Positions 1,609-31,878 of a stretch of DNA of 64,000 nt are shown here, piece by piece. The notes beneath the pieces were generated by a model. It saw only the letters and a list, made by a program, of their open reading frames with translations, made no database searches and was not told the DNA's origin. Where the stretch lies: the NCBI RefSeq assembly GCF_028769735.1, contig NW_026992281.1, positions 124,001-188,000 of the forward strand, given 5' to 3'. Positions within the stretch are counted from its first letter, which is position 1; every line of letters starts with the position of its first letter. The stretch is from Zonotrichia leucophrys gambelii (taxonomy: Eukaryota; Chordata; Aves; Passeriformes; Passerellidae). Made by a program: the position numbers and the translations under genes.

Positions 1609-1990
1609 AAAGGCCCGACCGACAGTTCGCCTGGGCACCCAGCGGCTGCAAAACACCCATCTTCCTCCAGGGAAGCTTTTAACAGTCTTGCAGCCACATC
1701 ACCCCAGTTGGGCCATAGGCCGAACGTGGACAGTTGTCCTTCAAGGGTCAAAAGAGAGAGTAAATGTGCGAATTATCAGGCTCCCACCGTCGGCGCCCCG
1801 AGCGGTCGGACCAAACAAAGTGATTAAAAGCGTGCCAAAAGGAAAAACGCAACCTACCCTAAAACCCTACCCACTAGAGTTAGCAAAGTCCCAACCGGCC
1901 ATGCGGAAGTCTTTCAGACAGACCGCGCACCAGGTCAGACTCAGACCCAATCCTTCGTATGTTAGAAGCTACCTTTATATCCCTGAATGA
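1580..1990 (+). pseudogene. env: Envelope surface-subunit remnant, frameshifted from the downstream env frame
   Basis: From about nt 1720 this frame reads like part of a gammaretrovirus-type surface subunit: a VRIIRL strand, then a PRAVGPNKVI motif, then a proline-rich stretch. In gamma-type envelopes such a segment lies just before the CWLC motif. Here CWLC lies in the next frame downstream, so a frameshift or small deletion separates the two near 1959-1990. The N-terminal part of the surface subunit, including a signal peptide and receptor-binding region, is absent. It is adjacent to, and was once continuous with, the env frame at 1959-3020. Confidence 0.5.
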
Positions 1991-3020
1991 ATCCAACCCT
2001 AACCTAACCGAATCCTGCTGGCTTTGCTACAATGTCAAACCTCCCTTTTATGAAGGAATCGCTTTAAACACTCCCTTCAGTTACTCCACAGCCGATGCCC
2101 CTCACCAGTGCAGATGGGAAACCCCTCGCAAAGGAATCACCCTGAGTCAAGTCACAGGCCGGGGCAGATGCTTTGGCAATGCAACCCTAGCTAGGCGGAG
2201 AGGCAACGTCTGCACCAAAGTTGTCAAGCCTAACAGGAAAAACAATAAGTGGGTAGTCCCATCCGCACCTGGGATGTGGATTTGCCAGAGATCTGGAGTG
2301 AGTCCCTGTGTGTCCCTTGCCAAATTTGATGACTCTAACGACTTTTGTGTCCAAGTTCTGATTGTTCATAGGATCCTGTACCACTCAGACGAAGAAGTGT
2401 ACCACCTTTTTGAGGAACCCAGCCGGCTCCACAAAAGAGAAATAATAACAGGTGTAACTATTGCGATGTTGCTCGGTTTAGGAGCAGCAGGAACGGCAAC
2501 GGGTGTCTCAGCCCTAGCGACACAGCACCAGGGACTGTCCCAGCTGCAAATGACCATCGATGAGGACCTGCAAAGGATCGAGAAATCCATTTCTTTCCTA
2601 GAGAAGTCAGTCTCCTCTCTCTCGGAAGTGGTCTTGCAGAACAGGCGAGGTCTGGATCTCCTGTTCATGCAGCAAGGGGGCCTGTGTGCCACCTTGAGAG
2701 AGGAGTGCTGCTTCTATGCAGACCACACAGGAGTCGTAAGAGACTCCATGGCAGAACTCAGAAACAGACTGGCTCAGAGGCAGAAGGACAGGGAAGCTCA
2801 ACAGGGCTGGTTCGAGTCCTGGTTCAATCAATCACCATGGCTAACCACTCTGATTTCTACCCTAATAGGTCCATTGGCATTGCTGCTTCTAGCAGTTACC
2901 TTCGGACCTTACCTGCTGAACAAGCTGGTCTCATTCGTTCAGGCCTGCCTGGAACGGGCCAACATCCTGTTCATCGGGCGGCGAATCCAACCAGGGAACA
3001 CGGCCAGCCACAAGTCCTAA
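1959..3020 (+). CDS. env: Truncated gamma-type retroviral envelope with intact transmembrane subunit
   Basis: The 353-codon open frame starts inside the surface subunit. It has CWLC at residues 20-23 (the gamma-type disulphide motif) and a cleavage-like LHKR ending at residue 160, which lacks the usual RxKR. A Gly/Ala-rich fusion-peptide-like stretch follows. The immunosuppressive-domain region starts at L226 and is followed by a CX6CC motif (C243, C250, C251). A membrane span lies near residues 297-322, then a short tail ending at residue 353. The transmembrane subunit is uninterrupted. The surface subunit lacks its N-terminus and no signal peptide is in frame, so entry function is very unlikely. 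The gag-pol piece upstream is class II-like while this env is gamma-like, a mosaic also known from other avian and mammalian retroviruses. No 3' LTR is evident after the stop. Confidence 0.75.
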   Translation: MLEATFISLNESNPNLTESCWLCYNVKPPFYEGIALNTPFSYSTADAPHQCRWETPRKGITLSQVTGRGRCFGNATLARRRGNVCTKVVKPNRKNNKWVVPSAPGMWICQRSGVSPCVSLAKFDDSNDFCVQVLIVHRILYHSDEEVYHLFEEPSRLHKREIITGVTIAMLLGLGAAGTATGVSALATQHQGLSQLQMTIDEDLQRIEKSISFLEKSVSSLSEVVLQNRRGLDLLFMQQGGLCATLREECCFYADHTGVVRDSMAELRNRLAQRQKDREAQQGWFESWFNQSPWLTTLISTLIGPLALLLLAVTFGPYLLNKLVSFVQACLERANILFIGRRIQPGNTASHKS

Positions 3021-6696: not shown

Positions 6697-6902
6697 GCCA
6701 TGAGGTCACAGCAGGCTCTGAGGTCACAGAGGTGCCAGAGCCCCGTGGTTGCACAGGAGCACAAGGAGCGAGCAGTCAGTGCTTGAGCACAACTTTTGCG
6801 GCAGCAGCAGCGGCAGTGGCAGCAGTGGTGCTGACATTGGGACAGCGGTGTCAGGACAGCGGTGGCAGCAAGAGCTGCGGGACTGGCAGAGGGCAAGGCA
6901 CC
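6697..6902 (+). promoter_or_regulatory. Upstream region of G1 with paired AGGTCA half-sites
   Basis: Two AGGTCA hexamers in direct orientation lie at 6703-6708 and 6721-6726, about 180-200 bp before the G1 start codon. They are followed by CAG/CGG-rich leader sequence and a strong start context (GCACCATGG). The same pair occurs before G2, G3, G4 and G6. AGGTCA is the half-site bound by nuclear receptors in general. Whether these sites act so here is inference. No TATA box is obvious. Confidence 0.4.
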
Positions 6903-9900
6903 ATGGCCCTTGCTCTGCGCCTCTTCCTCCTGCTCCTCCTGGCCGTGGCCCTGCCTGCCAGGGCTGCCCAGGCTGCTCCGCTGCAAGCGTGGCCAGCAGG
7001 TGAGCCGGCAGCCTGGCTCCCCTTTCCCGGGACAGCGCTCCCTGCTCCCCGGGAAGCGCTGGGGATGGTTTTCCCCAGGCCTTTAGGGAGGGTTTCCTCT
7101 GGGGGAAGGAGAGAGCCCTCATGGGCCCTGGGGCTGGCCCTGTTTCCTCTCTGGGGATGTGTCACAGGGCCTGCAAAGAGGGTGGAGAGTGCCCAGGAGC
7201 AAGTCCAGAGCTCCCCAGGCCCCTGTGCATCTTTGGCCTTGTCCATTCACATGTGGCTCCCCTGAGATTACCCTCCCAAAAGCAGAGGGGGGATCCCAGG
7301 ACACCATGGAAATGGGTTTGGGTGTTTGCTTCCCTCTAGATGAGCTTGCTAGGAAGGTTTCTCCAGCTGCTTGGCTCCCTGAGGATTTGCAGCCTCTTAA
7401 GCCTCCTGCAGGTATGTTGTCAATGTTCCCCTCAGAGGATAGTCCTTGACAACCTGGCAGGAACCAGGTGAAAGAAGCTGCTGTGGCTGTTGTGTTACAG
7501 GAGTTCCTGCAGGGAAGACTTTCCAGGCTCCTGTCTGGGTTGCTGCTCACAAGCCCAGCGCCCATCACAGGGGTGAGCAGTGTGTCCCTGCTGACCCCAT
7601 GGGCTGAGTCCTGCATCTTTGGGATCCAGTCTTCTAATATGCAAACACTTCTCTTAAGGTCCTCCGAGAGGGAGGAATAAGCCTGGAGGAGAAAGTAAGT
7701 CCCTAGAGGCATCCAAACCCATGGACAAGAGGACCCTGAGTGACCTGGAGAGGCCCCATGGTGGGTGCATTCCCTCAGCCTTGTCCTGGGGCTAAGCAGC
7801 CGGGGGCTTTGGCTGCACATCTGGACACGCCGTGACCGGCACAGCAGAAAGGGATCCATGGCAGCCTCGCTGCCCCACTGCTGCTTCCACGCCCTGCAGG
7901 GCTGTTTGCCAGCTGGCCTGGCTGCAGCTTCTCCCCAGCCTCTGCAGGAAGGCATTTGGCATCAGTTCCCAGGCAGCCCAAACTGTACAATGGCCCTGTG
8001 ATCCCCTGCAATTTTTCAGTCTCTGAGCACATTTGGAGGGGCAGCCCTTTGGAATAGGGAGGGCCCTGGAGCAGCCCCAATTACCTGATCTTTCTCCTGA
8101 ATCTTATCCATTACTTGGACATGGAGTGCCTCCTGAAGATGCCGCCTTCCCATTGGGGAACAGCCCCACCTGATCCGGCTGTCCCTTTTCCTTTCTGCAG
8201 AGATGGAAGGAGAGGCTGTGCTGAAGGCTCAGTTTCCCAGAGGAAGCAGGGGCTCATTGGCAGCCTCTGCTGCAGGAAGGGAGGCGATGCCAGGCACAGC
8301 CACAGGAGGTAATTGCTGTGCCTCTGGGCCTGAGCCCTGCTGAGGCTTGAGCTGCCCTCTCTGCTGCTTGGCACTCCTGGCACACAGCATTACCTGATCC
8401 CCTTCCACTGCTGGCTTCCCTATAGAAGGGGATCCCAGCACAGCATGGAACGGTTCCCATCTGTGCTCCTTTCTAGACTGGGATCCTGACTTCCATCATT
8501 TGGAAATGCTGGGAAAGCAATACTTAAGGATGCTGGAGCTTGGTGAAGGTAGGCTACCAGCAACCCTTCCCTAACAGAGTAATCATTCTCCAGGTGTAAT
8601 CATTGTCCAGAGTAATATTGCTGTGTCATTCCCCGTAAGATCCTCTGAAGTTTGATGGATTCTGGAAATCCTGGCCTCCAAATTTCTGCTACTGTGTCCA
8701 ACAGGCATCCAACAGGATCGCTGTCATTGGGAGGAAGGATCATTTATCTGTCCGTCCTCCTCCCGTGTGCAATGCCAGTGTGTGCTTCTGTGTGCTCTGT
8801 GCAGCCACAGAGAAGAGCAGAGAGGGAAGGGGCCCGGCCGAGGGCTGTGCCCTGGGGCTGAGCCTCTCTCAGCTCCTTTGCCGGCCCCAGGGAGCCTGAG
8901 CTGCTCCTGCTGCCGCTGCCAAGCCCTGGCCCTGCCTGGGGCTGGGTTTGGAGCTGCAGCAGCTCCAGGGAGTCCTTTCTGCCCCGACTGCCCAACAAGG
9001 GGCTCCTTCCATCCCAGTGTGGGGCCACTGCAGGCACGAGGTGCCCCTGGCCCTGCTCCTGAGTGGAAGGCAGAGCTGAGGGAGTGCCTTAGAGGGCACC
9101 AATCACCCAGGTGCCTTCACTGCCACTCCGGCAAAATTAGAAATGGAACAATTTTCTATTAAGGTCCTCCTAGTTGGATGAATCAAGGTACAGGATACAA
9201 GAAATCGCTGGAGGCAGCCAAACTTCTGGACCAGGTGCTGAGTGACCTGGAGAGGAAACGTGGTGGGTGCATTTGCCACAGCCTTATCCTGGGGCTCAGC
9301 AGCCGGGGGCTTTGGCTGCACATCTGGACACGCCGTGCCCGGCACAGCGGGAAGGGATCCATGGCAGCCTCGCTGCCCCGCTGCTGCTTCCACGCCCTGC
9401 AGGGCTGTTTGCCAGCCTGGCCTGGCTGCAGCTTCTCCCCAGCCTCTGCAGGAAGGCATTGGGCATCAGCTGACAGAGTGCCCAAACAGCACCATGGGCC
9501 ATACATGCCCTGAGATCCCCTGCAATTGCCTGGACCATGGGGAGATCAGGAATGACAGCAGTTTAGAAAAGGGCAAGCCCTGGCCAATCCCAAAAGTTTT
9601 TATGATTTCTTGCTCCTTATCCATCAGTTTGACCAGTATTGCCTCCTGAAAATGCCACCTCCCAGAAAGGGGGACATCTCCATCTAATTTAGCTCTCTCT
9701 TTTTCTTTCTCCAGAGATGAACCGAAAGGCTGTGCTGAAAACAGCACTTCCTGGAGGAAGCAGGGGCTCATTGGCAGCCTCTGCTGCAGGAAGGGAGGTG
9801 ATGCCCAGCACAGCCACAGGAGGTAATTGGTGTCCCTCTGGGCCTGAGCCCTGCTGAGGCTTGAGCTGCCATCTTGGCAGTGCGTCAGTGCCTGCCCTCC

Positions 9901-12900
9901 TGGGATGTCAGACAGGCCCTGCAAAGAGGGTGCAGAGTGACCAGGAGCCAGCCCAGAGCTCCCCAGGCCCCTGTTCTGTTTGGCCTTGTCCACTCACATC
10001 TGGCTCCCACAGCCTTACCCGATCCCCTTGCAGTGCCCAGTTCCCATAGGCAGAGGGGGATCCCAGGACACCGTGGAAATGGGTCTGGTCTGTGCTCCCT
10101 TCTAGATGACAGTGGTGGCGTGGCTTTGCCAGCAGCCAGGATGGAAGATGGTTTAGAGCACTTGGGAGCTTCTGCAGGTATGTTCTCAGAGAATAATCAC
10201 TGACAACCTGGCAGGAACCAGGTGACAGAAGCTTCTGTGGCTCTTGAGTTACAGGTGTGTCTGCAGGGAGGATCTTCCCAGGCCCTTTGGTGGATGTTGC
10301 TCACAAGCCCAGCTCCCATCGCAGGGGTGAGTAGTGTGTCCCAGCTGACCCCACACGCTGAGCCGTGCTTCTGTGGGATCTATTCCTGGTGAAATGGAAA
10401 TACTTTCTCTTAAGGTCCTCTGAGAGGAAGGAAAAAACCTACAAAACAGAATGTGTCCCTGGAGGAATCCAAACAACTGGACCAAACCCTGATTGACATC
10501 GAGAGGCACCGTGGTGGGTGCATTCCCTCAGCCTTGTCCTGGGGCTCAGCAGCCGGGGGCTTTGTCTGCACATCTGGACACGCCGTGCCCGGCACAGCGG
10601 GAAGGGATCCATGGCAGCCTCGCTGCCCTGCTGCCGCTTCCATGCCCTGGCCTGGCTGCAGCTTCTCCCCAGCCTCTGCAGGAAGGCATTGGGCATCTGC
10701 TGATGGGCAGAATAAACTACACCATGGGCTTGAAAGTACCTGGGATTTCCTGGTCTCTGGGCAGATCCGCAGGGGCAGATGTTTGGAGGAGGGAGGGCCC
10801 TGTGGCAGCCCCAAGAGCCTTGGCCTTTCCCTGATCCTTATCCATGTCTTTCACCATTGGTAACTCCTGAAGATGCCACCTCCCCAGTGGGGAATGGCTC
10901 CACCTGATCCAGCTGTCCCTTTTCCTTTTCTCCAGAGATGGAACAAAAGTCTTTCCGGAAGGCAGCACATCCTGGAGGACAAAATGTACCAGTGCTAGCC
11001 ACTGATAGAGGAAGTGAGGAGATGCCAGACAGTGCCACACAAGGTGATTGCTGTGCCAGGCTCAGCCAGGCTTAGCAGTCCTGCTGGGGTCCCTCCGTGT
11101 GAGACATATCCTGAAACCTGGGAGCGACTGCATGGGGTGCCCATGGTGGGGTAAGGGCATAAGGGGAGAGCAAGGTTGCAGTGTGTCCTGACAGGGCCTG
11201 GCTGTGTGTCCCTGGGCAGGGGGAGCTGTTACGGGGCAGGGAGGGTCAGGGCTGGCAGTGGCTGCTCACGGATGGCTTTGGCCCGTGTCCCTCCAAGCAG
11301 CCACTGCCCAAGCAGCTGTGCTGCCCCCGGGCTCTCCTCCCGGCCTGCTGGGCTTTGTTGGGTGGCACAGCCTGTGCCAAGGGGCAGCAAGGTGCCTGCA
11401 GGCCCCAGCTCTGGGGGAAACGGAGAACGTCCTGCCCGCATCCACCGTGCTGCCAGCTCAGCAGTGCAGCACAGCACGGGCTGACGCTCCCCATTCCTTC
11501 CACAGACGTTGTCACTGAAGCGGGAATATATGTACCGGATCCAGTGCACCTCCCAGAAATTGTCTGCCCCCAGGATGTGCGCAGGAAGTGCATGATAGGC
11601 ACAGCGGTGATAGTGTTCACTGTGCCACTTGTGCTGATAGGCTGCTATCTTGGCCTTCGCAAGGTGCAGGAGAAAAGACGGTCAGTTGCTGATTTTTCTC
11701 CACGGTTTTCTTGTAACTCTGCTCCATAGCATTGGTAGCCTGACTCGTAGTTGTGCTGCTGTGGAGTTGTGGCCAGTCCATGGCTGTCCAAAGAACTCTG
11801 GGAACGGTTCTGCTGCTGCCCAGAGCTTTCATTGGCCTCTTAATTGCTGGGCCTTGTCCTGGGGGGCCTGCCGGGGCTGCAGCCAGAGCTGGCTCCCACT
11901 GAGGCTGCCTGGCCAAGAGCAGCCCCAGGGGCACAGGGCAGTGGCAGAGCAAGTTCTCAGCAGTGTTTGGGCAGCACAGTTCAGGACAGGACAGTCCGTA
12001 TTTAGTAGCTCATGTAAAGTTTCATCGGATTTGCTCCAGTTCAGTGTTAAAACAAGTCCAACCTGATTAAGGTTTGGCTTTGGCCGTGAGACTTTGCTCT
12101 TTGTGTGAGCCCTGTTCTTGATTGATTCCCAATCAGTCTTGGAGCCACTTTTAGGTTAAGGCTCATCCCAGCTATGAGCATTGGCAGTTCTGGCCTCAAA
12201 GGGACAGCTGAGGCTGCACTGCACATGACTGGGAATCAGGGCTCCATTATGAAAGGGCTTGAGAAGTTTAAATTACTGTAATTTTTCTACATGTTTTTTT
12301 CTTTGAAATTTGTTCACTTTTTCTAATTTTATTTTTAAAAAAAAGTTTTCCAGTGCTTTTTACTGTTATTTGATATAGTGAATGCTGCCATGATTATCCC
12401 GTGGCTGAAATAGAAGACCGTAAGTATCATAAAATGGAATAATTTTTACACTCATGTCTTTCACAGGCTCATGAAACTTTTGTTGCTTTGATGTGACCAA
12501 CAGAAGAGTTTTGCTCTGCTTTTAATTCAAACAAGCAGCAGAGCTGGAACCTGTTGAGAAGAGTCTTTTCACAGCTACAGCAGCCTGCCAGGGTTCTTTA
12601 TTGAGGAAAATAAATCTTTATTTTATGTATATACTTGTCTTGGTTTGGAAAGACAGGTGCCTGCTAAGGAAGGCAGTAGCATCCCCGGAAATGGAGAATG
12701 TACCCACCCCCACCTTTGAATTGTTATAAATTTTTAATTAAGGGCCTCTTAGGCAAAAAAATGTGGGAGCAGGAAATAACAGTTCTTTAATAGGAAAGAA
12801 AATAAAAGTATAAAATAAACAATGCAGTAAACTAAAACAACACTGACAGAGTCAGAACACAACCCAACACCCAGTGGGTCAGGGTGTTGGTAGCAGTCCA

Positions 12901-15900
12901 ATTGGAATTATGACTGCAGTCCTCCTGGAGTGTCAGGTGTTGTTCTGCTGGAGCAGGAATCCTGTAGAAAAGGGTGTAGTCTTCCTCTGAAGCTCCAGGG
13001 GAAGAAGAGGCAGCTGCTGTTTCTCTGGGAAAGCCAGTGGAGAAGGTGTCTTGGTATTCCAGAATCTCCACATTATATCTCTGGTAGGAATTTCCTCTGA
13101 GGCAGAGCATCTCTGACTGGGATGCTGTAGTTCTTATCAGTCATGGAGTGACATTCAATAGCCTGTTATCAGCAGATGTTTGTGTCCCCGCCCCCTCCCC
13201 CAAGGGAGGAGTGGCTGTGGAACAGCTAAGGCAAACTGGCCACTTAACAGAAGACAGCTGCTGTACAGATGGTAATAGAATTCATATTGCTTTGCAGTTT
13301 GGGACACTATCCACGCCTTATTCTATTGCCATCTGCATCACAATGAAACTTTACTCACAACTCTCACTTAATACCAGCTTTTTCTGTGGTACACAAGGAT
13401 CTTCATCTTCCTGCATAACCCACCAAGTGTAACCGTGTCCTTGAGCAGAAACAATTCCATGGATGGGTTTGTCTTTGCCTGAGGTGGGATTAATCCAAAC
13501 AGTCTTTCCTAAAATACCTTTCATATGTACAACAGGGACATTATTTCCATCCACTGTGTGCAGGGGTTCAGACTGGGCAGGACCAGCTCAATTGATGGAC
13601 CCTCGGGTGTTGACCATCCAGGTGGCTTTTGCTGAGTTCATTTCCCTATTTCTAAAAGTCTCCTCCCCAGGTGCCTTCAGGGTAGTCTTAAGCAGTCCAT
13701 TGCACCATTCACCTTTCCTAGCAGCTGGTGCATGATAGAGGGTATGGTATATCCATTCAATACCATGTTCCCTGGCCCAGGTGTTGATAAGGCCATTCTT
13801 GAAATGGGTCCCATTGTCCAACTCAGTCCTTTAAGGGGTGCTGTGTCTCCACAGGATTTGCTTTTCAAGGCCCAGGATGGTGTTCCAGGCAGTTGCATGA
13901 GACACAGGGTAGATCTCCAACCATCCAGTAGTGGCTTCCACCATGGTCAGCACATAGTGCTTGCCCTGACGTTTCTGGGACAGTGTGATGGTCAATCTGC
14001 CAAGCCTGCCCATACTTGGACCACCGCCCACCATACCATAGGGGCTTCACCTGCCTGGCCTGTTTGATGGCAGCACACGTGTCACAGTCATGGATAACCC
14101 TAGAAATACTGTCCATGGTTAGATCCACCCCTCGGTCTCGTGCCCACTTAGAGGTGGCATCCCTGCCCTGATGGCCTTAGGCATCATGGCCCCATCAAGC
14201 TAGGAACAACTCCCCTTATGCTGCCAATCTAAGTCTGTCTTCAACACCTCTATTTTTGCTGCCTGATCTACCTGTTCATTGTTTGGTGTTCCTCATTAGC
14301 CCGACTCTTGGGGACATGAGCATCTACATGATGGACTTTCACAGGTAGCTTCTCCAACTGAGCAGCAATTCATCAGCAGCCCAGACTGGTTTTCCCCTAC
14401 GCTGCCAGTTGACCTTTTTCCACCTTTCCAGCCAGCTCCACAGAGCATTGGCTACCATCCACAAATCAGTATAAAGGCAGAGCTTTGGCCACTTCTCTCT
14501 CTCAGCAACGGCCAGGGCCAGCTGAACAGCTTTGAGTTCAGTAAGTTCACTTGAACCACCTTCTCCTTTAGTAGTTTGTGCAACCTGTTGTGGGGGGCTC
14601 CATACGGCTGCTTTCCACTTCCAGTTCATCCCTACCATGCGACAGGAACCGTCAGTGAAAAGAGCGTAGCGTGTTTCCTGTGCTGGTAGATGGTTGTATG
14701 GTGGAGCTTCTTCAGCCCGTCTCACTTGCTCTTGTTCACCAGTGAGACCAAAGTTTTCACCTTCCGGCCAGTTTGTAATTATCTCCAAAATCTCAGGGCA
14801 ATTCAGGTTTCCAATATGGGCGTGCTGTGTGATAACAGCAATCCATTTGCTCCATGTGGTGTCAGTGGCGTGGTGGGTAGTGGGAACCTTTGCTTTGAAC
14901 ATTCACCTCATTACCAGTAGTTGGGGTGCCAGGAGGAGTTGTGCTTCCGTGCCAATCACCTCTGAGGCAGCCTGGACTCCTTCATAGGCAGCCAAGATTT
15001 CTTCTGTTGGAGTATAGTTGGCTTCAGACCATCTCTAACTTTGACTCCAAAATCCCAGTGGTCGGCCTTGAGTCTCCCCAGGCACTTTCTGCCAAAGGCT
15101 CCAGGACAAACCATGGTTCCCGGCTGCAGAGTAGAGCACATTTTCCACCTCTGGTCCTGTCCTGACTGGGCCAAAGGCTACTGCATGAGCGATTTCCTGC
15201 TTAATCTGGGCAAAAGCTTGTTGCTGCTCAGGGCCACAGTGGAAATCATTGTCTTGCAAGTGACAAGGTAAAGAGGGCTCACGATCTGACTGTACTCAGG
15301 AATTGGCATTCTCCAAAAACCGATGGTGCCTAGAAAGCTTGTGTTTCTTTCTTGCTGGGTAGTGGAGACATTGCTGTGATCTTACTGATGACCTCAGTGG
15401 GAATCTGACACTGTCCATCTTGCACCTTTACTCCCAGGAACTGGATCTCTCGGGCATGTCCCTTGACTTTACTCTTCTTGATGGTGAAGCTGGCTTCCAG
15501 CAGAATCTGGATGATCCTCTCTCCTTTCTCAAATACTTCCATTGCTGTGTTCCCCCAAACAATGATGTCATCAATATACTGCAAGTGTTCTGGAGCCTCA
15601 CCCTTTTCCAGTGCAGCCTGGATCAGTCCATGGCAGATGGTGGGGCTGTGTTTCCACCCCTGGGGCAGTCGGTTCCAGGTATACTGCACGCCCCTCCAGG
15701 TGAAAGCCAACTGAGGCCTGCATTCTGCTGCCAGAGGAATGGAGAGAAATGCGTTAGCAATGTCTATAGTGGCGCACCACTTCGCTGCCTTGGACTCCAG
15801 CTCGTACTGGAGCTCCAGCATGTCCAGCTCAGCAGCGCTCAGCCGTGGAGTCCCTTCATTCAAGGCACAATAGTCCACAGTCAATCTCCATTTTCTGTCA

Positions 15901-18900
15901 GACTTGCACACAGGCCAGACAAGACTGTTGAAGGGTGAGTGGGTTTTGCTGACCACCCCCAGCTCTGCAGCTCATGGATCATTTTGTGGATGGGGATCAC
16001 AGCATCTCAATTCACCCGATACAGCCGGCGGTGCACTGTCGAGGTGGCAACTGGCACTCTTTGCTCTTCTACCTTCAGGAGTCCTACTGCAGATGGGCTT
16101 TCTGATAGTCAGGGCAAGGTGTTCGACTGCTTAATGTTCTCTGCCTCTACAGCAGCTATTCCAAATGCCCATCTGAGTCCCTTTGGGTCTTTGTAATAGC
16201 CATTCTGGAGAAAGTCTATGCCCAGAACACAGGGGGCCTCTGGGCCAGTCACAACAGGATGTTTTTTCCACTCTTTCCTAGTCAGGCTCACCTCGGGTCC
16301 CAACAGGATCAATTGCTGTGATCCCCCTGTCACCCCGGCAATGGAAACAGGTTCTGCCCCCCACATGGGTGGTATCAGGGCACACTGCACCAATATCAAC
16401 TAAGGCATCGTATTTTTGTGGCTCTGATGTGCCAGGCCATGGATCCACAACATCCAGAAGATCTGGTTTTCCCATGCCTCTCCCTGGCTACAGGCAGGGC
16501 CCCTCTAACCCTGGGTATAAATGGTAGAGGTACCTTCCAGAGGATCTGACAGATCATACTCAGCAGCTCGGTCATGGGAGGTTGAGGCTACCTTTACTGG
16601 AATTCCCTCAATTAGTGTTTCCCTCCTTGAGTTGATGCACCCGTACTGCCAGGACAGAAGTGGGTTTCCCATCCCACCTTCCCATACCTCTCCCATGGTC
16701 ACACAGAAGGAACCACAGGTCAGCCCGTGGGGTGTACCCTCTCTATCTAGCTGGAGAATGTTTGGCTCTGACTCTGGGGCCTGTGACTCGCACTGGTGCC
16801 ATGTGGGAACTGTTCCTCCTCACCTCCTCCCTCATCTCCTCTCTGAGTTCTTGGACGACAGCAGAGACAAGAGCCTGCATTGGGCCATTGATCATACTCA
16901 CACAATTTCTAAGCTTGGTGGCCACAGAACCCACTGTCTCTCGGTTGGTGTCGGCATTAATTGTTGCAATGAAGGTGGTGTATTGATCTGGCCCCAGATT
17001 TGCCAGACTCCACAACATTTGGCCTGTGCACCTGACCTTGTCGGGGTCATTTTCATGCTGTCCATCCCTCCCAAAGAGTACCTCCAATACTGCCACTTCT
17101 CTCAGCTGTTGGATCCCCCCCTCAAGGGTCTTCCAGCACATTCTATGGTGGTGCTCCTGCATTGTCTCCCTGCGGACAAACCTGTGGAATCCTAGGGCAC
17201 CAGGAATATTTCTCTGTCTGCTCTGGGGTGCCCTGACCCCCACGGAAGCTCTGACTTTGACCCTCATTCATGGAGAAAGTTTCCTAGACTTCAAGATAAA
17301 CTAGAATCCACAAAAGCGTGAAATAGATTATAGAGAGTAGTGTAGTTATATCACTTGGTGAGAAATTTAGTTTTGGGATTTTTAGTATTTTGTGGATGAA
17401 AGCAAGATGGAGGGCACAGGGTGTCATCCTGGGTTTCTTCTTTCTTCTCCATGCTTTTTCTTCCTCCTTCTTCATGGGTTTGGGTGGCATTTTGTAATTG
17501 GGCAGGAAAGTCCACATTGCAGGCTCTTTGGGATCAGTTATTGGGTTAAAAGAGAAAATAATCCAGGTGTCAGTTCTTAATTGGATAGTTTACTCTTAAA
17601 AGACCTTGTAACAAGAGCTTGTTGGCCATTTTGCGCCTTCTAATGAAAACCTGCCGAACTCACCGTAATGAGACTGTTTTACTGATAAGAAATAATAAAC
17701 ACTTGAGTCTGAACACAAATTACTGTCTCAAGTGCCTTCAATCCAGATCCAGAAAAACCAACAACTGGGACCCCCACACGAACCTCTGTCTGACACTTAT
17801 TAAAAGCCGCTCCCAGAGGGAAAGGGACCCTGGCTCCCTTACAAAAATCTGATTCATACCGGAGTCCTGGGTCAAGGCTCCCAGATTCCTTGCCTCACCA
17901 CCACCCAGCTGGACACCTGTACCCATAAGGTCCCAGACACGGAGTCGCCAGGTTGTATAAGCCTCACATCCCCCTCGTACAATGTCTTTGTGCAGATTAC
18001 GGAGACTTTCGTACGCCAGGGACTCGGTGATGATTGCAACCTCTGGCTACCCTGTGGGTTGTGAGGGCCCTCCCCTATCTGGGTGCTCTGCTTTCATCTT
18101 AGATATCCTTGTTTCCACAGGGGTGACTGCTGCTGACTGTGTCTGCCTTTGCAGTTCACCTGGAACCTGGACAGTTGTAACATCTGTGGGTTCTGCTGAT
18201 GCACTATTAGACTCTCCTTCTTCAAGGCAGGGGGACGGCTTCTCACCAGGTGGGGAAGTGTATTCCTTCAGCATCTGGCCCATATCATGCATCTCCTTCA
18301 CCAGACCACCCACCCAATCTGGTAGTTCACATCTGGGATGGGCTGTGGGGCAGGGTGAGGCTCTGGGGCAGCAGCATCCCAAGGCTCTGGTGCCATGTCA
18401 GGTTCTGGGGTAGGTGTCAGGGTAGGTATCCAGGTTTATCTTCCCTTCTCTCTAAATGCTAAATAGAACAGGCCTATCAGCAACATCAGCAACTGCATGG
18501 TATTGTTAGTATTGAGAGTGGATCTGAACTCTTCAAAAACTCATGGGACAGACCTAAAGAGATGATTAAAGTGTTGGGAGAAAATTTCCTCCCGTGTCAT
18601 TTCCTTACACCAGCTGCCATTAATAAAGTAACCCCAAAAACATACAGTTAGTGTGTGATAGCTGTGAATCCATGTGCCTGCATTCCAGAGCAAGTTAAAA
18701 ATCCATTAATTCCTCACCTTATCCACCCATAAAACAAACCAGATAACAGACACAGTAGCTTTGGTTATAGGACCCATGTTTAGGTAAGGGCTTGCAAATG
18801 GGAGGAATACAGCCAGTACCACATGCCACCCAAACCAGGGCAAGCTGGACCACGTGGGGTTGCTTAACAAGGTTTCTATAGTTGTACACAGAGAAAGTGA

Positions 18901-20389
18901 TTACTCAAGAACTGTTATTCCCTTTTTGTTTCTGTGCCCTCGAGCCTCAAGTTGGGCACCAAAATCTGTCTTGGTTTGAAAAAGACAGGAGTCTGCTAAG
19001 GAAGGCAGGAGCCTCCCATGAAATTGAGAATGTAAGTGTGTCGTTCCCCCCCCCCCCCCCCCAGCTTCCAAATTGTTAAGGGCCTCTTAGGCAAAAAAAT
19101 ATGGGAGCAGGAAATAACAGTTCTTTAACAGGGAAGAAAATAAAAGTATAAAATAAACAATGCAGTAAACTAAAACAACAATGACAGAGTCAGAACACAA
19201 CCTGACACCCTGTGGGTCTGGGTGTTGGTAGCAGCCCAATTGGAATTGTGGCCGCAGTCCTCCTGCAGTGTCAGGTGTTGTTCTGCTGGAGCAGGAATCC
19301 TGTAGAAAAGAGTGTAGTCTTCCTCTGAAGCTCCAGGGGAAGAAGAGGCAGCTGCTGTTTCTCTGGGAAAGCCAGTGGAGAAGGTGTCTTGGTGTTTGTT
19401 GCCTTCTGATACAAGGCTGGCGACCTGGTTTCAAGAGACAGCACGGCGACCCATTCTCCAGGGCCGCTCGGGCCTAAGAAACACGCTGACACCAATGTGG
19501 TGGACGGTCAAAGGCCTTTATTATCTCTTCTCGTGGGGTTTTATAGTCTAAGGGGCTTCTACGTCAGGCGAGGGTCTGTCTTTATCATCTATGGTTAGTA
19601 GGGAATGGAAACTTACAGGGAAAATGGAAAATTACTGGCATGTGGTTTGGGGGGCTGCATTCCTATGTTAATTTTCTTATCTAAGAGAACAGGGCCCCTG
19701 TCTTCCCGTAACATCGCGAGATCTTCCGAAAGCCTGGCCCTATCTGCCACAGGTGTTCCAGAATCTCTACATTATATCTCTGGTAGGAATTCCCTCTGCA
19801 CAGAGCATCTCAACCTGGGATGCTGTAGTTCTTATCATTCATTCAATAGCCTGTTATCAATTCAATAGCCTGTTATCAACAGATGTTTGTGTCCTGTTCC
19901 TGAATGTCCCAGTCCCACCGCCAATCCCCCCCACCCAATCCCCATCCGCCCACCCCCCTTCCCACCGCCAAATGAGGAGTGGTTGTGGAAGAGATAAGGA
20001 AAACTGCCCACTTAATAGAAGACAAGACAAGTGCTATACAGATACAATATGGAAAAATACTCCTGACAAGTGACTGATAGAAATGAGGGATTTGGACTCT
20101 TTGGGATGTACTGACCAGCAGTGCATTGGCTCTGCGAATCTCAGTCTGTAATAATCAATCTTTTTCAGAAGAGAATGTTCCGTTTCTTCCTGGCACTCAC
20201 GCTTGCGTGTACTCAAAAACACTTCTTGAAAGAAATTTACAATGGCTCTTTATGGTCTCTTAGTTGACTTTTCTCTCTTTCTCCAGAGATGCCGATGAAA
20301 ACTGGGATGATTCCATTAAAAAAGCTGCAAAGCAGATCCTGGAATGGAGGGCATACATCTGCTCCCACCCTCTGGACAGGACATTCTGA
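6903..20389 (+). CDS. G1: modular type I membrane protein, 12 exons, three A-B-C cassettes
   Basis: I do not recognise the family. Exons: 6903-6999 (signal peptide), A1 7340-7411, B1 7659-7760, C1 8201-8308, A2 8477-8548, B2 9164-9262, C2 9715-9822, A3 10106-10177, B3 10415-10513, C3 10936-11043, transmembrane 11506-11680, tail 20287-20389. All have AG acceptors and GT donors. Internal junctions are phase 1 up to the transmembrane exon, which ends in phase 2. Joined, they give 404 residues without a stop. A Leu-rich signal peptide ([20 protein letters not shown]) begins it. B exons look like a charged helix. The extracellular part has no Cys until the CPQDVRRKC pair just before the membrane span (about 342-363). 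The tail is short and charged (DADENWDD...). AATAAA lies at 20490-20495. The last intron (8.6 kb) holds the ERVL provirus in antisense. If that intron were retained, the protein would stop 15 codons after the donor. Confidence 0.7.
7761..7960 (+). repeat. Conserved intron block after B exons (first of about 11 in the window)
   Basis: The roughly 200 bp that begin at the donor after each B exon (GTGGGTGCATT..., then a GGATCCATGGCAGCCTCGCTG core, ending near CTCTGCAGGAAGGCATT) recur almost unchanged. On the plus strand they start at 7761, 9263, 10514 (with a short deletion), 23681 and 47792. On the minus strand they run left from 38300, 40089, 57677, 58928 and 60430. A truncated one lies near 52240-52400. 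They carry long accidental open frames on both strands. Confidence 0.85.
12636..13281 (-). repeat. 3' LTR of the ERVL provirus
   Basis: Begins on the plus strand with TGTCTTGGTTTGG and shares most of its sequence with 18967-20056. The right boundary is approximate: the pair can be followed through CTGTACAGATGG near 13270, and an ATTCA end near 13281 is the best guess. Confidence 0.7.
13588..14128 (-). pseudogene. pol: Integrase remnant of the ERVL provirus
   Basis: Two overlapping minus-strand frames (13865-14128 and 13588-13821) hold integrase pieces: a CDTCAAIKQ zinc-finger-like part, a WQIDH motif with the first catalytic Asp, and DNGTHF with the second Asp, ending in a [10 protein letters not shown] region near the catalytic Glu. 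A frameshift separates them. The catalytic domain is recognisable but broken. Confidence 0.7.
14339..14902 (-). pseudogene. pol: RNase H region of the ERVL provirus
   Basis: The open frame of 187 codons contains the RNase H motifs FTDGSC (first catalytic Asp), a [13 protein letters not shown] helix with the catalytic Glu, and [12 protein letters not shown] (third Asp; the usual DS is DL here). It lies between the RT and integrase frames, as expected for pol. Confidence 0.75.
15330..15956 (-). pseudogene. pol: Reverse transcriptase domain of the ERVL provirus
   Basis: The 208-codon frame carries the RT palm: [11 protein letters not shown], a [13 protein letters not shown] motif with the first catalytic Asp, [13 protein letters not shown], then YIDDIIVWG with the catalytic Asp pair and a FLGV primer grip. 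The YIDD active site is intact, but the frame is cut off from the rest of pol by stops at both ends. Confidence 0.85.
16109..16475 (-). pseudogene. pol: Protease region of the ERVL provirus
   Basis: Two overlapping frames cover a retroviral aspartic-protease-like stretch: an ALVDIGAV motif, where the canonical active site is DTGA (Thr replaced by Ile), and downstream [10 protein letters not shown], resembling the conserved GRD/GID-L segment. A frameshift lies between them. It is upstream of RT on the minus strand. Confidence 0.6.
16743..18382 (-). pseudogene. gag: gag remnants of the ERVL provirus
   Basis: Frame 16743-17267 (174 codons) is capsid-like, with a long helical stretch ([16 protein letters not shown], then [12 protein letters not shown]) and a charged [10 protein letters not shown] end. 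Frame 18047-18382 lies nearer the 5' LTR and, by position, would be the start of gag. The interval 17284-18046 between them and 18383-18943 (leader) holds only broken or short frames. Confidence 0.55.
18944..18961 (-). other. Primer-binding site of the ERVL provirus
   Basis: Just inside the 5' LTR, five bases away, the minus strand reads TGGTGCCCAACTTGAGGC. It resembles the lysine-tRNA type of primer site with three or so differences. It marks the start of the internal region and fixes the element's orientation. Confidence 0.6.
18967..20056 (-). repeat. 5' LTR of the ERVL provirus, with a nested solo LTR
   Basis: Starts TGTCTTGGTTTG like the other LTR and follows it apart from a 355-bp LTR inserted at 19397-19751, a C17 run at 19046-19062, a duplicated TTCAATAGCCTGTTATCA unit near 19845-19880 and a C-rich expansion near 19915-19965. 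Its outer end has lost the usual CA, reading TGGAAAA before the ATACT duplication. Confidence 0.75.
19397..19751 (-). mobile_element. Solo LTR, 355 bp, nested in the ERVL 5' LTR
   Basis: Starts TGTTGCC and ends TGCCACA, with GGTGTT on both sides (19391-19396 and 19752-19757). On the minus strand it has a TATAAAA box followed about 20 bp later by AATAAA, so it points left. It is the youngest layer here: it sits in an LTR of a provirus that is itself missing from the other arm. Confidence 0.9.
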
Positions 20390-20704
20390 TCCCTCCCTGA
20401 AAGCAGGCACTCATGACAGTCAGTCAGGGAGGAATTTGCTGCAGTTCCAGAATTTGACACCTTAAAAGCACCTGTTATTTAATGTCTTTAATAAATGTAA
20501 CTGCATAAAATAAAAATTCTTCGTAAACACTAGTTCATAGGAAAAGGAAAAATAAAGAGATTTTATTTAAAGTGGAATAGATATACATGTCTGTTCCTCT
20601 TGGAGCTGGATAAAGACAGGGAGGGGAGGTTTGGATGGGGAGATATTTCTTCCCAGGGAAGGGATTGTGTGGTTTCTCAGGATCTTTTCTCTTCAGTGAG
20701 CTCC

Positions 20705-22456: not shown

Positions 22457-25400
22457 ATGGCCCTTGTTCTGCGCCCCTTCCTCCTGCTCCTCCTGGCCGT
22501 GGCCCTGCCTGCCAGGGCTGCCCAGGCTGCTCCGCTGCAAGCGCGGGGAGCAGCGCGGGGAGCAGGTGAGCCGGCAGCCTGGCTCCCCTTTCCCGGGACA
22601 GCACTCCCTGCTCCCCGCGAAGCGCTGGGGATGGTTTTCCCCAGGCCTTTAGGGAGGGTTTTCTCTGGGGGAGGGAGAGAGCCCCATGGGCCCTGGGGCT
22701 GGCCCTGTTTCCTCTCTGGGGATGTGTCACAGGGCCTGCAAAGAGGGTGCAGAGGGCCCAGGAGCCAGCCCAGAGCTGCCCAGGCCCCTGTGCAGCTTTG
22801 GCCTTGTCCATTCACATGTGGCTCCCGCAGCCTACATGCCCCCCTTGCAGTACCTATTTACTATAGACAGAGGGGGATCCCAGCACACCATGGAAATGGG
22901 CCTGGTCTTTGCCCTCTTCTAGACTGGAACGATAAGATGGCTTATATGGAAAAGCTGGTGAATGACAATATGAAGACTCTAGGGCATGGTGGAGGCAAGT
23001 TCTCTGTGTTCCTTTCCTGACAAAATAATCAGTGTCCATGTGGCAACGGCTCAGTCATGAGCCCTGTCCCTTAACACAATCTCTGAGTTTAAAGAATCTG
23101 GAAATCTTGCCCTGCTCTCTTCTGTGATCCCCCAGGATCGCTGTCAGTGGGAGGAAGGATCATTTAGCTGTCCATCCTCCTCCCGTGTGCAATGCCAGTG
23201 TGTCCCTCCGTGTGCTCTGTGCAGCCACAGAGAAGAGCAGAGAGGGAAGGGGCCAGGCTCAGGGCTGTGCCCCGGGGCTGAGCCTTTCTCAGCTCCTTTG
23301 CCGGCCCCAGGGAGCCTGAGCTGCTCCTGCTGCCACTGCCAAGCCCTGGCCCTGCCTGGGGCTGGGTTTGGAGCTGCAGCAGCTCCAGGGAGTCCTTTCT
23401 GCCCCGACTGCCCCACAAGGGGCTCCTTCCATCCCAGTGTGGGGCCACTGCAGGCACGAGGTGCCCCTGGCCCTGCTCCTGAGTGGAAGGCAGAGCTGAG
23501 GGAGTGCCTTGGAGGGCACCAATCACCCAGGTGCCCTCACTGCCACTTGGGCCTGAAGGAGAAATGGAACTTCCCATTAAGGTCCTCCTGAATGGAAGAA
23601 CCAAGACATAGGAGACACAAAATCCTTGGAGGCAGCCAAACATCTGGAGCAGATGCTGAATGACCTGGAGAGACGCCGTGGTGGGTGCATTTCCCTCAGC
23701 CTTGTCCTGGGGCTCAGCAGCCGGGGGCTTTGGCTGCACATCTGGACACGCCGTGCCCGGCACAGCGGGAAGGGATCCATGGCAGCCTCGCTGCCCCGCT
23801 GCTGCTTCCACGCCCTGCAGGGCTGTTTGCCAGCCTGGCCTGGCTGCAGCTTCTCCCCAGCCTCTGCAGGAAGGCATTTGGCATCAGTTCACAGGCAGCC
23901 CAAACAGCACCACGGGCCATAGATGCCCTGAGATCCCCTGCAATTTCCTAATCTCCAGTCAGATCAGGTGTAGGGGCTTTTTTGGTCAGGGAGGGCCCTG
24001 GCCCAGCTCCAACAGCCTGACCATTTTCCTGATCCTTATCATGACTTGACAAGTATTGTCTCGTGAAGTTGCCACCTCCTGCAATGGTTCCATCTGACCC
24101 AGCTGTCCTTTTTCCTTTCTCAAGCAATGGAGCAAAAGTCCATGCAGATGGGGCCATATCCTGTAGGAAGCAATGGCTTTGTGCCAGCCACTGATGCAGG
24201 AAAGGAGGAGATGCCAGACATGGGCTCAGGTACAGGAGATAATTGCTCCACCAGGCTCAGCCCTTGGTGGGGCTGTGTGGCAGCAGCTCTTTCCCCCAGG
24301 GCCTGCCCTTGCCCAGCCCGGCAGCAGCCAAAGCTGGAGGAGGCTCTGGAGGCTTGGAATCCTCTGGAGCTCGTTCACAGCCCCGGGGAAAGGGGACCCG
24401 TGCACCAACGTCCCTCCCGCTGCAGCTGCTCTGGAGCTGGCCCTGAGTGCCCAGAGGCCCAAGGCACAGGAGCAGCCCCGAGCGGGAGCCCTGCCGCCAG
24501 CCCAGGGCCAGAGCCAGCCTTGGCTCCCGACTGGGCAGGGGCTGCACTGGCTCCTGACAGGGCCTGACTCTGTGCCCTGGGGCTGGGGGAGCTGTCACGG
24601 GGCAGGGAGGGCCAGGGCTGGCAGTGGCTGCTCAGGGATGGCTTTGGCCCGTGTCCCTCCAAGCAGCCACTGCCCAAGCAGCTGCGCTGCCCCCGGGCTC
24701 TCCTCCCGGCCTGCTGGGCTTTGTTGGGTGGCACAGCCTGTGCCAAGGGGCGGCAAGGTGCCTGCAGGCCCCAGCTCTGGGGGAAACCAAGAACGTCCTG
24801 CCTGCATCCACCGTGCTGCCAGCTCAGCAGTGCAGCACAGCACGGGCTGATGCTCCCCATTGCTCCCACAGAAGTGCTTGGCAAGTCAGACACTGACGCC
24901 CAGAATCCACGGAACACCCCAAGAGATATCTGCCCCCAGGATGTGCGCAGGTCCTGCATGATAGGCACGGTAGTGACACTGTTCACTGTGCCAATTTCCG
25001 TGGTGCTGTGCTGTGTTGGGTTCCGGTGGTGGAAGGGAAGGAAACGGTAAGTGTTGGCCCATCTCTACCCTCCAGCTTCTTTAAAGGCTGCACACAGTCA
25101 GGGAACATTCAGGGAACAGAGAGGCTGCAGCGTAGGTGTGGCCAGTCCATGGCTGTCCAAAGAACTCTGCTGAGGGTTCTGCTGCTGCTCAGAGCTTTCA
25201 TTGGCCTCCTAATTGCTGGGCCTTGTCCTGGGGGGCCCGCTGGGGCTGCAGCCAGTGCTGGCTCCCACTGAGGCTGCCTGGCCAAGGGAAACCCCAGGGG
25301 AACAGGGCAGAGGCAGAGCAAGGTGGGGAGGAGAAAGAGCAGGGACGAGATTGCCTTTAAAAGGCAGAGGCGCTCTGGGGCCTGCTCCTGGCCACGGAGC

Positions 25401-26730
25401 CTGCCCAGAGCCATGGCCTGCTCGCCGGGGCCTTGAGGGGCAGCTGTGCAGCTGGGCCAAGCTGTGCCAGCAGCTCCAGCCGTGCTGGGGAGCCTTGCCA
25501 GCTCTGAGCCCTGCTGTGCAGGAGGCTCCCTGTGTGCCACTGGCAGCTGGGCCCTCAGCCACCTCCTCTCTCCACAGTCGCGCTGTCGCTGCTCCAGCAT
25601 CCCGGCCGAGAAGGCGTGCCTCTCCCTCTCCCCCAGAGAGCCCAGAGACCGGCGCCTTTGACAGCTCTCACCCGAGGCCTCGGCAGCAGGAGTTGCCCAA
25701 GAAAGCAGAGCACCAGCCCTCCGTGCCTCCCCCACGGCCCCCCAGCCCGGCCTTGAAGCGGAAGCCTCCCGAGATCCCCCCACCTCCACCCCTCCCGAGC
25801 CCGCCGCCCTGGTCCAACTAGGACTGCAACTGGGCTAGCCTCGCAGGGCTTGGGCCATCAACAGCTTAGGCTCCTGCCCTCCTGTACAATTAGCCCGTGT
25901 TACCTACGGGCAACAGCCAGAGTCCGTTTTCATACTCTTGGACTTTCAACAGGAAGGGCTGAAGATTCTTCCCATGCCCTTTCTCATCCTTTACCTCTTT
26001 GATTTTCATACAGTTGGGTGCTCGTTGCATCTCTTAAAGTTTTATTAGCACTGCATGTTTTGCCTTACCTGTCAAGGGAAAAAAGATAAAAATATTCTTC
26101 TGTTTTGATTTCACTTTTAGTGTGGTTGTGTTGCTCACATTTTCAGCAATTATTTTTCCACGGTACTGCTTCCTTTTTCCTTACTATCCATAAAAAGTTC
26201 ATCTGGACATAAAAATCACCAGCTTTACTGAGATTTACCTCAAAGCCCCGATAGGGAATCTAGCACCAAATATTCTCCCTGTGTACTGCACAACAAGAAA
26301 TATTCAGAAGAATATTCACTGGCAGCTGAGGCTCGTGGAACTCCCAGAATACTGAGCCTGCAGAGGAGGCACACAGCCCTGGCAGTGGCTGAGGGGACTT
26401 CTCCTCACAGACTCCTCTGAAAGTGTGTCACTCCAGGAGGAGAAAGCCTTTAAACCTGTGCCTTACCTTCTTCCTGTGCTAAAATGTAAGGTTCCTCCTG
26501 AGCTACAAACAATTCTCCATTCCTCAACAAAGCTACTCATGTTCGTGACTTATCTTAAAGAGCAAAAGCAAATGTGGTCAGAAATTTCTCATCAAAGCCT
26601 GTTTGCAGAGAAACGCCACCATATGTGAGAAAATAGTTCTTAGCATCAGCTCAGTCAAAAGAAAGCCAACAATTGAGCAGTGCTTTAAATGAACTTGAAT
26701 TCCCTTTCCTCACCTATCAGCTGGTTTGAT
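22380..26730. repeat. Segmental duplication D3, first copy (pairs with about 46520-50815, direct)
   Basis: The whole of G2 with its 3' flank is repeated as G4 with its flank. In the 3' flank (25822-26731) no gene is supported. A GATAAA near 26086 stands where G4 has AATAAA (50179-50184). A 67-codon frame at 26425-26628 is matched at 50518-50721 merely because the DNA is duplicated. Confidence 0.85.
22457..25821 (+). CDS. G2: modular type I membrane protein, 6 exons, one cassette, proline-rich tail
   Basis: Exons: 22457-22565 (signal peptide, 12 nt longer than in the other copies by a GCGGGGAGCA-type repeat), A 22923-22994, B 23582-23680, C 24125-24229, transmembrane 24872-25046, tail 25578-25821. 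All junctions keep phase, giving 267 residues. The A exon keeps its 72-nt length only if a GC donor (G|GCAAGT) is used. The extracellular part is about 125 residues without Cys. CPQDVRRSC precedes the span (about 158-178). The tail (from residue 187) is basic, then strongly proline-rich (PSVPPPRPPSP, PPPPPLPSPPP), with several PxxP motifs of the kind bound by SH3 or WW domains. A is most like A2 of G1, B like B2 and C like C3, so it probably arose by loss of the intervening cassette. Function unknown. Confidence 0.72.
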
Positions 26731-27677: not shown

Positions 27678-28694
27678 ATGGGTCAGGGAAAAAGTAAGTC
27701 CTTAGACCCAGGGGCTGCAGATATTGTGAAAAATTTGCAGGAGTTTAGGGTATCTGGGAACTTTGAGGGGGGTTCTCAGGAAGGGAGTATTCCTCAGGAC
27801 AGCCCACTGGCGATGATGATACGGTTTTGGGATGGAAAGGGAATCCCGAAAGGGAAAAAGTAAACGAAAATGATTAAGTATTGCATGTTTGAATGGACAA
27901 AGGAAATGATCCTGAAAGATATATTGGCCTAAGTCTGGATCATTTTAGGTTTGGATTTGCCAGGCTCTAAATATATATGTGAATTCGAAAAACCCTGTTA
28001 ATCAGGAGGCAAGTGAGTATGCTGCCTTATGGAGTCCTGAGGGGAGAAGTAGGTTTGTTGTTCAGAGGCAGGAGGCTGGGGGTTCCCAAGGTATCCTTTA
28101 TTAACCAAAGGGCAGGTGGTTAAAAGGAACAGGCAGGAGCCATGGGACCCACTAAATCAACTCCCACCCCCTTATGGACAACCCAACCAGCTAGCTCAGC
28201 CACAGGCCCCTGAAAGTCCCCCCGTAAATCCAAATGCACCTCCTATTCAAGAGGAGCTGGTGGCACACAGAACCAGAGGCAGAGGGAGACAAGGGGAGGA
28301 AAATGATGGAGATGAGGGGGAAGAAAGGGAGAATCAATTGTACCCACTTAGAGAGGTCCCCATGGCAAATCCAGGACAGAGGCCACCTATTGGTTATGTG
28401 AGTGTTCCCCTAAAGACCGGGGATGTCAGGGAGTTTAAGAAGGAGATGGGTACACTGATAGAGGACCCCGTCGGAGTGGCAGAAGAGTTAGATCGGTTTT
28501 TGGGACCAAACACATATACCTGGGTGCAGATGCAGTCTATGCTAGGAATTTTGTTTACAAGAGAAGAGAGAGAGATGATCAGACAGGCAGGAATGCGGAT
28601 TTGGGACAGAGAACATGAGGGACAAGGGCGGAGTGATCAGAAATGGCCTATGCAGGATCCAAATTGGAATAATCAGAATGCAGAGCATAGGTAG
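27678..28694 (+). pseudogene. gag: gag remnants of the gamma-like provirus
   Basis: The matrix starts at 27678 with MGQGKSKS (Gly2 as a myristoylation site) and stops at 27863. After a gap with stops, frame 28116-28694 resumes with a PPPY late-domain motif, a proline/glutamate-rich linker, then a capsid start (YPLREVPMANPGQ) with a TWVQMQSMLGILFTREEREM helix. Beyond it, near 29209-29263, a zinc-knuckle-like stretch (CFYCHKKGH) is present whose last Cys is Ser. Confidence 0.7.
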
Positions 28695-31825: not shown

Positions 31826-31878
31826 AAATTTTATGGGTGTATAGAGATATTTGAAAGTGGAAAACAAATTACCCAGGG

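Follow-up and report, generated by a model that had tools for sequence, protein, structure and literature searches.

A passerine gene family of phase 1-1 exon cassettes with intron islands as candidate sites of recombination

A 64,000-nucleotide (nt) stretch of the genome of Zonotrichia leucophrys gambelii (NW_026992281.1, 124,001-188,000, forward strand; "the window", in whose coordinates all positions are given) contains members of a gene family whose modules are encoded by exons that are in phase 1 at both ends, i.e., of class 1-1. We interpret these genes as belonging to a family of single-pass membrane proteins in passerines, the cassettes of which would have been multiplied and exchanged by recombination at islands of alike sequence within the introns, and we give this interpretation, which is read from the DNA, a probability of about two in three. 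That the family codes for proteins appears very likely; taken separately, the exchange of cassettes by recombination at the islands is a step toward which we lean only slightly.

Cassette exons and module grammar

Gene G1, on the plus strand, was originally predicted to be an exon-cassette gene in which three exon types, A, B and C, are repeated three times. Nine exons of 72, 102 and 108, then 72, 99 and 108, and again 72, 99 and 108 nt are indeed found between a signal-peptide (SP) exon and a transmembrane exon (Table 1), and each is preceded by AG, followed by GT and in phase 1 at both ends. The description as an avian exon-cassette gene is upheld, but the unit is A-(E)-(V)-B-C rather than A-B-C, with an additional exon, V, in units 1 and 3. 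A1 and A3 are of one sequence type (Ad) and A2 is of another (Aw), so that the gene does not repeat a single A, and the order of modules in G1 is SP-Ad-V-B-C-Aw-B-C-Ad-V-B-C-T1. With both V exons, G1 comprises 418 codons plus two bases up to the donor at 11680. The open join of 404 codons that had been reported could not be reproduced: the exons listed at the time make up 370 codons to 11678, or 386 when the transmembrane exon is read to a stop. No stop occurs by 11680, and a last exon was looked for in the window and not found; the GT donor at 11681 without a preceding stop implies that a further exon follows.

The same layout recurs on the minus strand in G6 (61284-56501), as had been noticed, with the difference that the first B exon of G6 is 99 and not 102 nt long. 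G6 is open to a GT donor, and its last exon was not found in the window. Altogether, five genes (G1, G2, G4, G5 and G6) splice into open frames, G1 and G6 without a last exon having been found. G2 and G5 have the order SP-Aw-B-C-T1-proline-rich (Pro-rich) tail and G4 has the order SP-Ad-V-B-C-Aw-E-B-T2-tail, T1 and T2 being two types of transmembrane exon; all three reach a stop without a frame break. Profiles built from relatives likewise reveal V exons in G6 (units 1 and 3) and G4 (unit 1), and the E exon of G4 is a weak profile match (14.8 bits; at 108 nt the exon is longer than the 24-residue profile). Phase 1-1 holds for 11 of 11 cassette exons in G1, for 11 of 11 in G6 and for all cassette exons of G2, G4 and G5. 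Because the cassettes are symmetrical, their gain, loss, swapping and skipping would all stay in frame. Fourth and fifth cassette types, two transmembrane exon types and two tail types were not part of the original prediction, nor was the partly higher likeness of introns than of exons (see below).

Two further features of these genes were observed. The A exon is followed by a GC rather than a GT splice donor in both G2 (22994) and G5 (47106). In addition, TGAGGTCAC motifs are repeated in the 5' flank of G1 (6700-6760) and occur upstream of G2, G4 and G5, and could be promoter half-sites.

In the protein and profile searches that had been proposed as a check, the predicted G1 protein matches passerine proteins, and the profiles recover its modules and reveal V. 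Of 7,997 candidates scored in the G1 search, 148 reached E<=10, and the best 120 of these 148 are all passerine by name and mostly annotated as "uncharacterized". Manakin proteins used as queries gave 12 of 12 matches for the T1-tail region and 35 of 35 for the T2-tail region that are passerine by name, suboscines included. Together, the three lists hold 167 rows, 145 distinct proteins and 25 species, all passerine by name among the matches listed. Two species were checked in the taxonomy and the others were assigned by name; the remaining listed species we take to be passerine. The search was word-based and needs shared words, 28 of the 148 G1 matches fall outside the listing, and protein databases rather than bird genomes were searched, so absence outside passerines is not proven. 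All 11 exons first described for G1 (SP, nine cassettes and transmembrane) have counterparts among the modules found repeatedly in annotated proteins of passerines, which bears out the view that the layout is more than chance.

Across the best 120 of the 148 relatives plus G1, the modules recognised by the profiles follow a single cyclic order, which can be written as SP-[A-(E)-(V)-B-C]n-T1/T2-tail. Among 1,091 adjacent module pairs, V-B accounts for 177, B-C and Ad-V for 167 each, and C to Ad or Aw for 161. A protein holds up to five units (P0001), and many models are without some module or an end. Both T1 and T2 are present in suboscine and in oscine proteins, and the two transmembrane classes are therefore old. 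Of 13 loci with several predicted isoforms, 3 have a pair distinguished solely by a clean gap the size of a cassette: 25 residues with 0 mismatches, 36 with 1 and 78 with 0. At two further loci the isoforms differ by just 2 or 10 residues, and the rest are more complex, with some models reading into an intron island. All of these isoforms are database predictions, a point against our interpretation.

There are at least two ways to regard the open frames in the window. First, the family is very probably protein-coding, and the way in which the frames have been kept supports this. In the pairs G1/G6 and G2/G5, introns carry 12 and 10 insertions or deletions (indels), respectively, that are not multiples of three, and the exons carry two indels, of 3 and 12 bases. 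Frameshifting exon indels thus number 0, versus 6.75 expected from the intron rate (P 0.001), which is also a second reason to consider the layout more than chance; splice dinucleotides show 0 changed bases versus 3.9 expected (P 0.02). Alternatively, the tandem copies could form an array that is mostly dead or hardly expressed, with frames left open from recent duplication and a functionless protein. Several observations lean toward this second possibility, and those on divergence, dN/dS and stops also weigh against our interpretation. Exons and introns are equally diverged (identity 94.1 vs 93.9% in G1/G6 and 96.1 vs 95.0% in G2/G5), and the ratio of nonsynonymous to synonymous change (dN/dS) is near 0.8-0.9 in three of four pairs (0.91 in G1/G6, 0.77 in G2/G5, 0.83 in G1/G4), with 1.89 on 13 changes in G4/G6; these values indicate little amino-acid constraint at this scale. 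The absence of stops is by itself weak (P 0.11-0.13 and 0.40-0.44), and partial copies occur in the window. However, the lack of exon frameshifts speaks against a dead array, as do the open frames of 5 of 5 full copies, the conservation of the T1 juxtamembrane motif and the Pro-rich tail between suboscines and oscines, and the tail exon of G2 versus G5, which has 2 nonsynonymous changes over 175 nonsynonymous sites. We consider a dead array improbable.

Among deep exon pairs, pooled dN/dS is 1.76 for C (one pair 1.28), ranges from 0.54 to 0.97 in T1 and the remaining cassettes, and is undefined for the signal exon (5 nonsynonymous changes and no synonymous change). We do not claim positive selection, because the exon pairs are non-independent and the sites are few.

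Intron islands and exchange between genes

The introns contain islands of about 200-450 bp that are mostly 90-100% alike in 50-base windows, while the cassette and membrane exons of the same units are 49-85% alike. In the B-C intron, six pairs drawn from four diverged units have a pooled p-distance (gaps not counted) of 0.035 over the first ~200 bases, versus 0.30 in exon B, 0.29 in exon C and 0.30 in the rest of the intron, with the flanks differing by 44-47%. Whole-exon identity between G1 and G2 is 49% for A1, 60% for A2, 79% for B2, 68-71% for C and 63% for T1; the signal exon is at 95%. Further islands lie around the SP exon and in the A-B and C-T introns. GC content is 0.64-0.68 in the islands, 0.52 in the remainder of the B-C introns and 0.56 in exons. 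All ten B exons found in the window have a copy of the B-C island behind them, and an eleventh copy belongs to a remnant.

The exons present a different pattern. Of 34 modules in the window, 31 are closer to a module of another species than to another unit class in the window, with 2 ties. In single-species comparisons the same holds for 11 of 14 modules with Vidua, 12 with Passer, 8 with Taeniopygia and 11 with Cyanistes. Taken together, the islands look homogenised within this genome and the exon types look shared across species, as patchy gene conversion would leave them. Some points weigh against this: the 34 modules include recent duplicates and the pool from other species is much larger; equal-size random draws reduce the counts, of 14, to 11 (Vidua), 9 (Passer), 8 (Taeniopygia) and 6 (Cyanistes); the B-C island is partly missing from G1 unit 3 (86%); and the likeness of translated islands within the window is just modestly above that to Vidua (up to 0.90 for the best single pair).

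Conversion is not the only way to keep islands alike. They could instead be held by purifying selection on a function such as splicing control, an enhancer or an RNA element that chooses cassettes. Their presence behind every B exon of the window, their sharp edges and the fact that the translated island is recognisable in nine models from seven other species all fit such a function. Against it, no Rfam match was found within the window, and the one copy whose folding was tested has an ordinary energy (z -0.03), on which grounds we rejected a structured RNA or splicing switch; a coding island was also rejected, since 3 of 10 copies are shifted in the translated frame. Moreover, the island drifts between species: when translated, the seven in-frame window copies have a mean likeness of 0.94 to one another (lowest pair 0.88), versus means of 0.66-0.87 to other species. 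The window copies also have a base in common that is not implied elsewhere. All 9 of the window copies that keep this site read TTTG, the remnant reads TTTC, and the nine other-species models all imply another residue there. A functional constraint therefore seems to us an unlikely explanation compared with conversion.

Evidence bearing on exchange comes from G4. Its identity to G6 is 96.5% across 4,959 bp that begin 2.7 kb upstream of the genes and take in unit 1 and A2. The shared block starts at the window's end on the G6 side and stops at the 3' edge of the A-B island, where identity in 100-base windows drops from 92-98% to 40%. Beyond this breakpoint G4 continues to T2 and G6 continues to C2, unit 3 and T1. 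G6 is in turn 93.3% identical to G1 over 5,354 bp, through T1. To us, G4 and G6 are most simply explained by a recent exchange whose break lies at the island.

The breakpoint is the only clear one and is not clean. It is followed by about 300 bases that include the E exon, beyond which the similarity of G4 to the B2 region of G6 resumes at 79% (other units match at 83-85%), and the shared block reaches the window's end on the G6 side; both facts weigh against the exchange. They also suit a plain tandem family with little exchange, in which the 5' parts of G4 and G6 arose by segmental duplication followed by gain or loss of the E-bearing stretch, and in which the islands are merely slow-changing GC-rich DNA: a block that starts 2.7 kb upstream, at the window's end on the G6 side, is what segmental duplication would leave, and the match resumes once the E-bearing stretch is passed. 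However, identity falls right at an island edge, G4 and G6 end in different transmembrane classes that each exist in suboscines and oscines, and high GC alone is not obviously enough to yield 3.5% versus 30% divergence within one intron. We therefore regard a plain tandem history as rather unlikely, though it is the strongest of the alternatives.

Each gene of the family consists of an SP exon, one to at least five A-(E)-(V)-B-C units, T1 or T2, and a tail. If the islands do serve recombination, gene conversion would keep the GC-rich intron islands alike, and these would supply the homology both for multiplying units and for exchanging gene halves together with their transmembrane class; the exons would meanwhile retain distinct old lineages, and alternative splicing would contribute whole-cassette variants. 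The full form of this scheme is germline exon-swapping, in which conversion-kept islands act as handles for exchanging cassettes and gene halves, exons diverge as old trans-species lineages, species-specific mosaic repertoires result and splicing widens them. We offer it as a tentative model, with the odds somewhat against it as a whole.

Predicted products and comparison with known families

An AlphaFold prediction (21 relatives; one model) gives a largely disordered ectodomain, with a mean predicted local distance difference test (pLDDT) of 51.7; values of about 70 or more are confined to the signal peptide, the membrane helix and the helices where B joins C. The products may accordingly be pictured, with some reserve, as flexible single-pass surface proteins that carry short helices at these joins, a pair of cysteines next to the membrane and a membrane helix. 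The Pro-rich tail of one T1 class is, by its motifs, presumably suited to SH3/WW-type partners. Fast turnover is all that points to their likeliest role, in which they would be rapidly evolving molecules for recognition, or decoys, on immune or reproductive surfaces; this prediction is speculative.

Pfam gave no credible family in 10 proteins (the G1 product, a G5-type product and eight relatives), the matches being sub-threshold or repeat-driven, and no MHC or immunoglobulin (Ig) domain was among them. A PDB sequence search gave one chance match (E 1.6), and the modules were not found in other protein families in either database. Individual candidates were rejected as follows: (i) DUF569, LYRM2-like and DUF4279 assignments of P0001 are repeat artefacts, in which cut-offs were passed by whole-protein sums and by no single stretch; (ii) a cathelicidin precursor, suggested by the name "prophenin and tritrpticin precursor-like" of P0065, lacks support, since Pfam returned 0 families at E<=1 and hence no pro-domain, and the name probably reflects the Pro-rich tail; and (iii) a SIT-type transmembrane adaptor reached 11.1 and 12.8 bits in P0043 and P0061, versus a cut-off of 27.6 for Pfam SIT.

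That no family with this layout has been described, as originally stated, agrees with Pfam, with the PDB searched by sequence and with the literature: neither topic nor locus names led to a paper on the family among open-licence papers, supplements being outside the search. The family is, however, already present in public passerine annotation, in the form of predicted proteins that mostly bear the label "uncharacterized".

In the known class 1-1 modular proteins, which Patthy's concept attributes to exon shuffling, the modules are folded domains that recur in many families. The present family resembles such proteins in its symmetrical phase 1-1 cassettes between a signal peptide and a membrane anchor. 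It differs in that its pieces are 24-36 residues long, mostly disordered, without a credible Pfam family and seen in one bird order. The sea urchin Sp185/333 (SpTransformer) genes are similar in organisation, in that many near-identical genes encode mosaics of short elements; these elements are largely contained in a single exon and are not known to form phase 1-1 cassettes. Patchy homogenisation with some regions escaping also recalls MHC and other families under gene conversion, in the passages available from PMC2944132 and PMC2720389. The pattern is reversed relative to those of PMC2944132, in which an intron seems to escape conversion: here intron patches are alike and the unit of change is a small exon cassette. 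Finally, the songbird-unique genes in the available passages of PMC4377847, which include expanded families and TMRA, a songbird-unique 330-aa three-pass protein with a lectin-like domain, are likewise lineage-restricted, with no match found beyond the group; cassette exons are not described in those passages, and suboscines, too, have the present family. Gene conversion, lineage-specific families and phase 1-1 cassettes are each known, and their combination is, as far as could be tested, undescribed.

Further contents of the window and implications

The remaining family members are listed with G1 in Table 1. Near 43.5 kb (43468-43540), the start of a T2-type exon behind a C-T island is followed by unrelated sequence, and this member looks cut off by an insertion; another partial copy of this kind lies at the right window end. 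Between a retroelement and G2, an isolated AG-bounded open stretch at 20287-20480 resembles a C exon and matched no module profile.

Just downstream of G1, the minus strand of 12640-19990 appears by eye to be a retroelement, with pol-like open pieces and similar repeats near both ends, and this element may separate G1 from its last exon. An open frame at 1959-3020 resembles, by eye, an endogenous retroviral envelope-type protein. On the plus strand at 28116-33711, open pieces like gag and pol of a second endogenous retrovirus were seen by eye, where GC content is lower and GC skew is positive.

Table 1. Family exons, intron islands and the G4 breakpoint in the window
Feature	Position	Strand	Description
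G1 SP exon	6903-6999	+	97 nt, ends in phase 1
G1 A1 exon	7340-7411	+	type Ad, 72 nt, phase 1-1
G1 V1 exon	7501-7572	+	72 nt, phase 1-1; profile match, absent from the original prediction
G1 B1 exon	7659-7760	+	102 nt, phase 1-1
Island after B1	7761-7965	+	94.7% to copy after B2
G1 C1 exon	8201-8308	+	108 nt, phase 1-1
G1 A2 exon	8477-8548	+	type Aw, 72 nt, phase 1-1
A-B intron island	8707-9163	+	93-94% to G2 and G5; G4 match spans 8597-9127 at 94%
G1 B2 exon	9164-9262	+	99 nt, phase 1-1
Island after B2	9263-9470	+	query copy
G1 C2 exon	9715-9822	+	108 nt, phase 1-1
G1 A3 exon	10106-10177	+	type Ad, 72 nt, phase 1-1
G1 V3 exon	10255-10326	+	72 nt, phase 1-1; profile match, absent from the original prediction
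G1 B3 exon	10415-10513	+	99 nt, phase 1-1
Island after B3	10514-10700	+	86% to copy after B2 counting gaps; has a deletion
G1 C3 exon	10936-11043	+	108 nt, phase 1-1
C-T intron island	11174-11505	+	93-96% to G2, G5, G6 and 43.5-kb copy; 87% over 141 bases to G4
G1 T1 exon	11506-11680	+	juxtamembrane CPQDVRRKC and transmembrane helix; GT donor at 11681
G2	22457-25821	+	SP 22457-22565, A 22923-22994, B 23582-23680, C 24125-24229, T1 24872-25046, Pro-rich tail 25578-25821; open to stop
G4, first part	within 36840-40943	-	SP 40847-40943, A1 40436-40507, V1 40275-40346, B1 40090-40188, C1 39540-39647, A2 39300-39371
G4 breakpoint	38728-38739	-	3' edge of A-B island; high identity to G6 ends at 38728, to G1 at 38739
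G4, second part	within 36840-40943	-	E 38568-38675, B2 38301-38399, T2 37571-37721, tail 36840-37038; open to stop
G5	46594-49914	+	SP 46594-46690, A 47035-47106, B 47693-47791, C 48237-48341, T1 48966-49140, Pro-rich tail 49671-49914; open to stop
T2-class gene remnant	51689-52380	-	tail exon 51689-51877, island copy 52245-52380 (TTTC)
G6, SP and unit 1	within 56501-61284	-	SP 61188-61284, A1 60777-60848, V1 60616-60687, B1 60431-60529, C1 59881-59988
G6, unit 2	within 56501-61284	-	A2 59643-59714, B2 58929-59027, C2 58369-58476
G6, unit 3 and T1	within 56501-61284	-	A3 58014-58085, V3 57865-57936, B3 57678-57776, C3 57138-57245, T1 56501-56675

A grammar is now available for a family that is scattered through passerine annotation as mostly "uncharacterized" loci, and a model of A, B and C alone is seen to leave cassettes out. 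Should the islands indeed be recombination handles, the family would be a case of vertebrate exon shuffling that is still in progress and can be read from sequence. If its products are recognition molecules, a passerine-specific family would join the immune or gamete repertoires.

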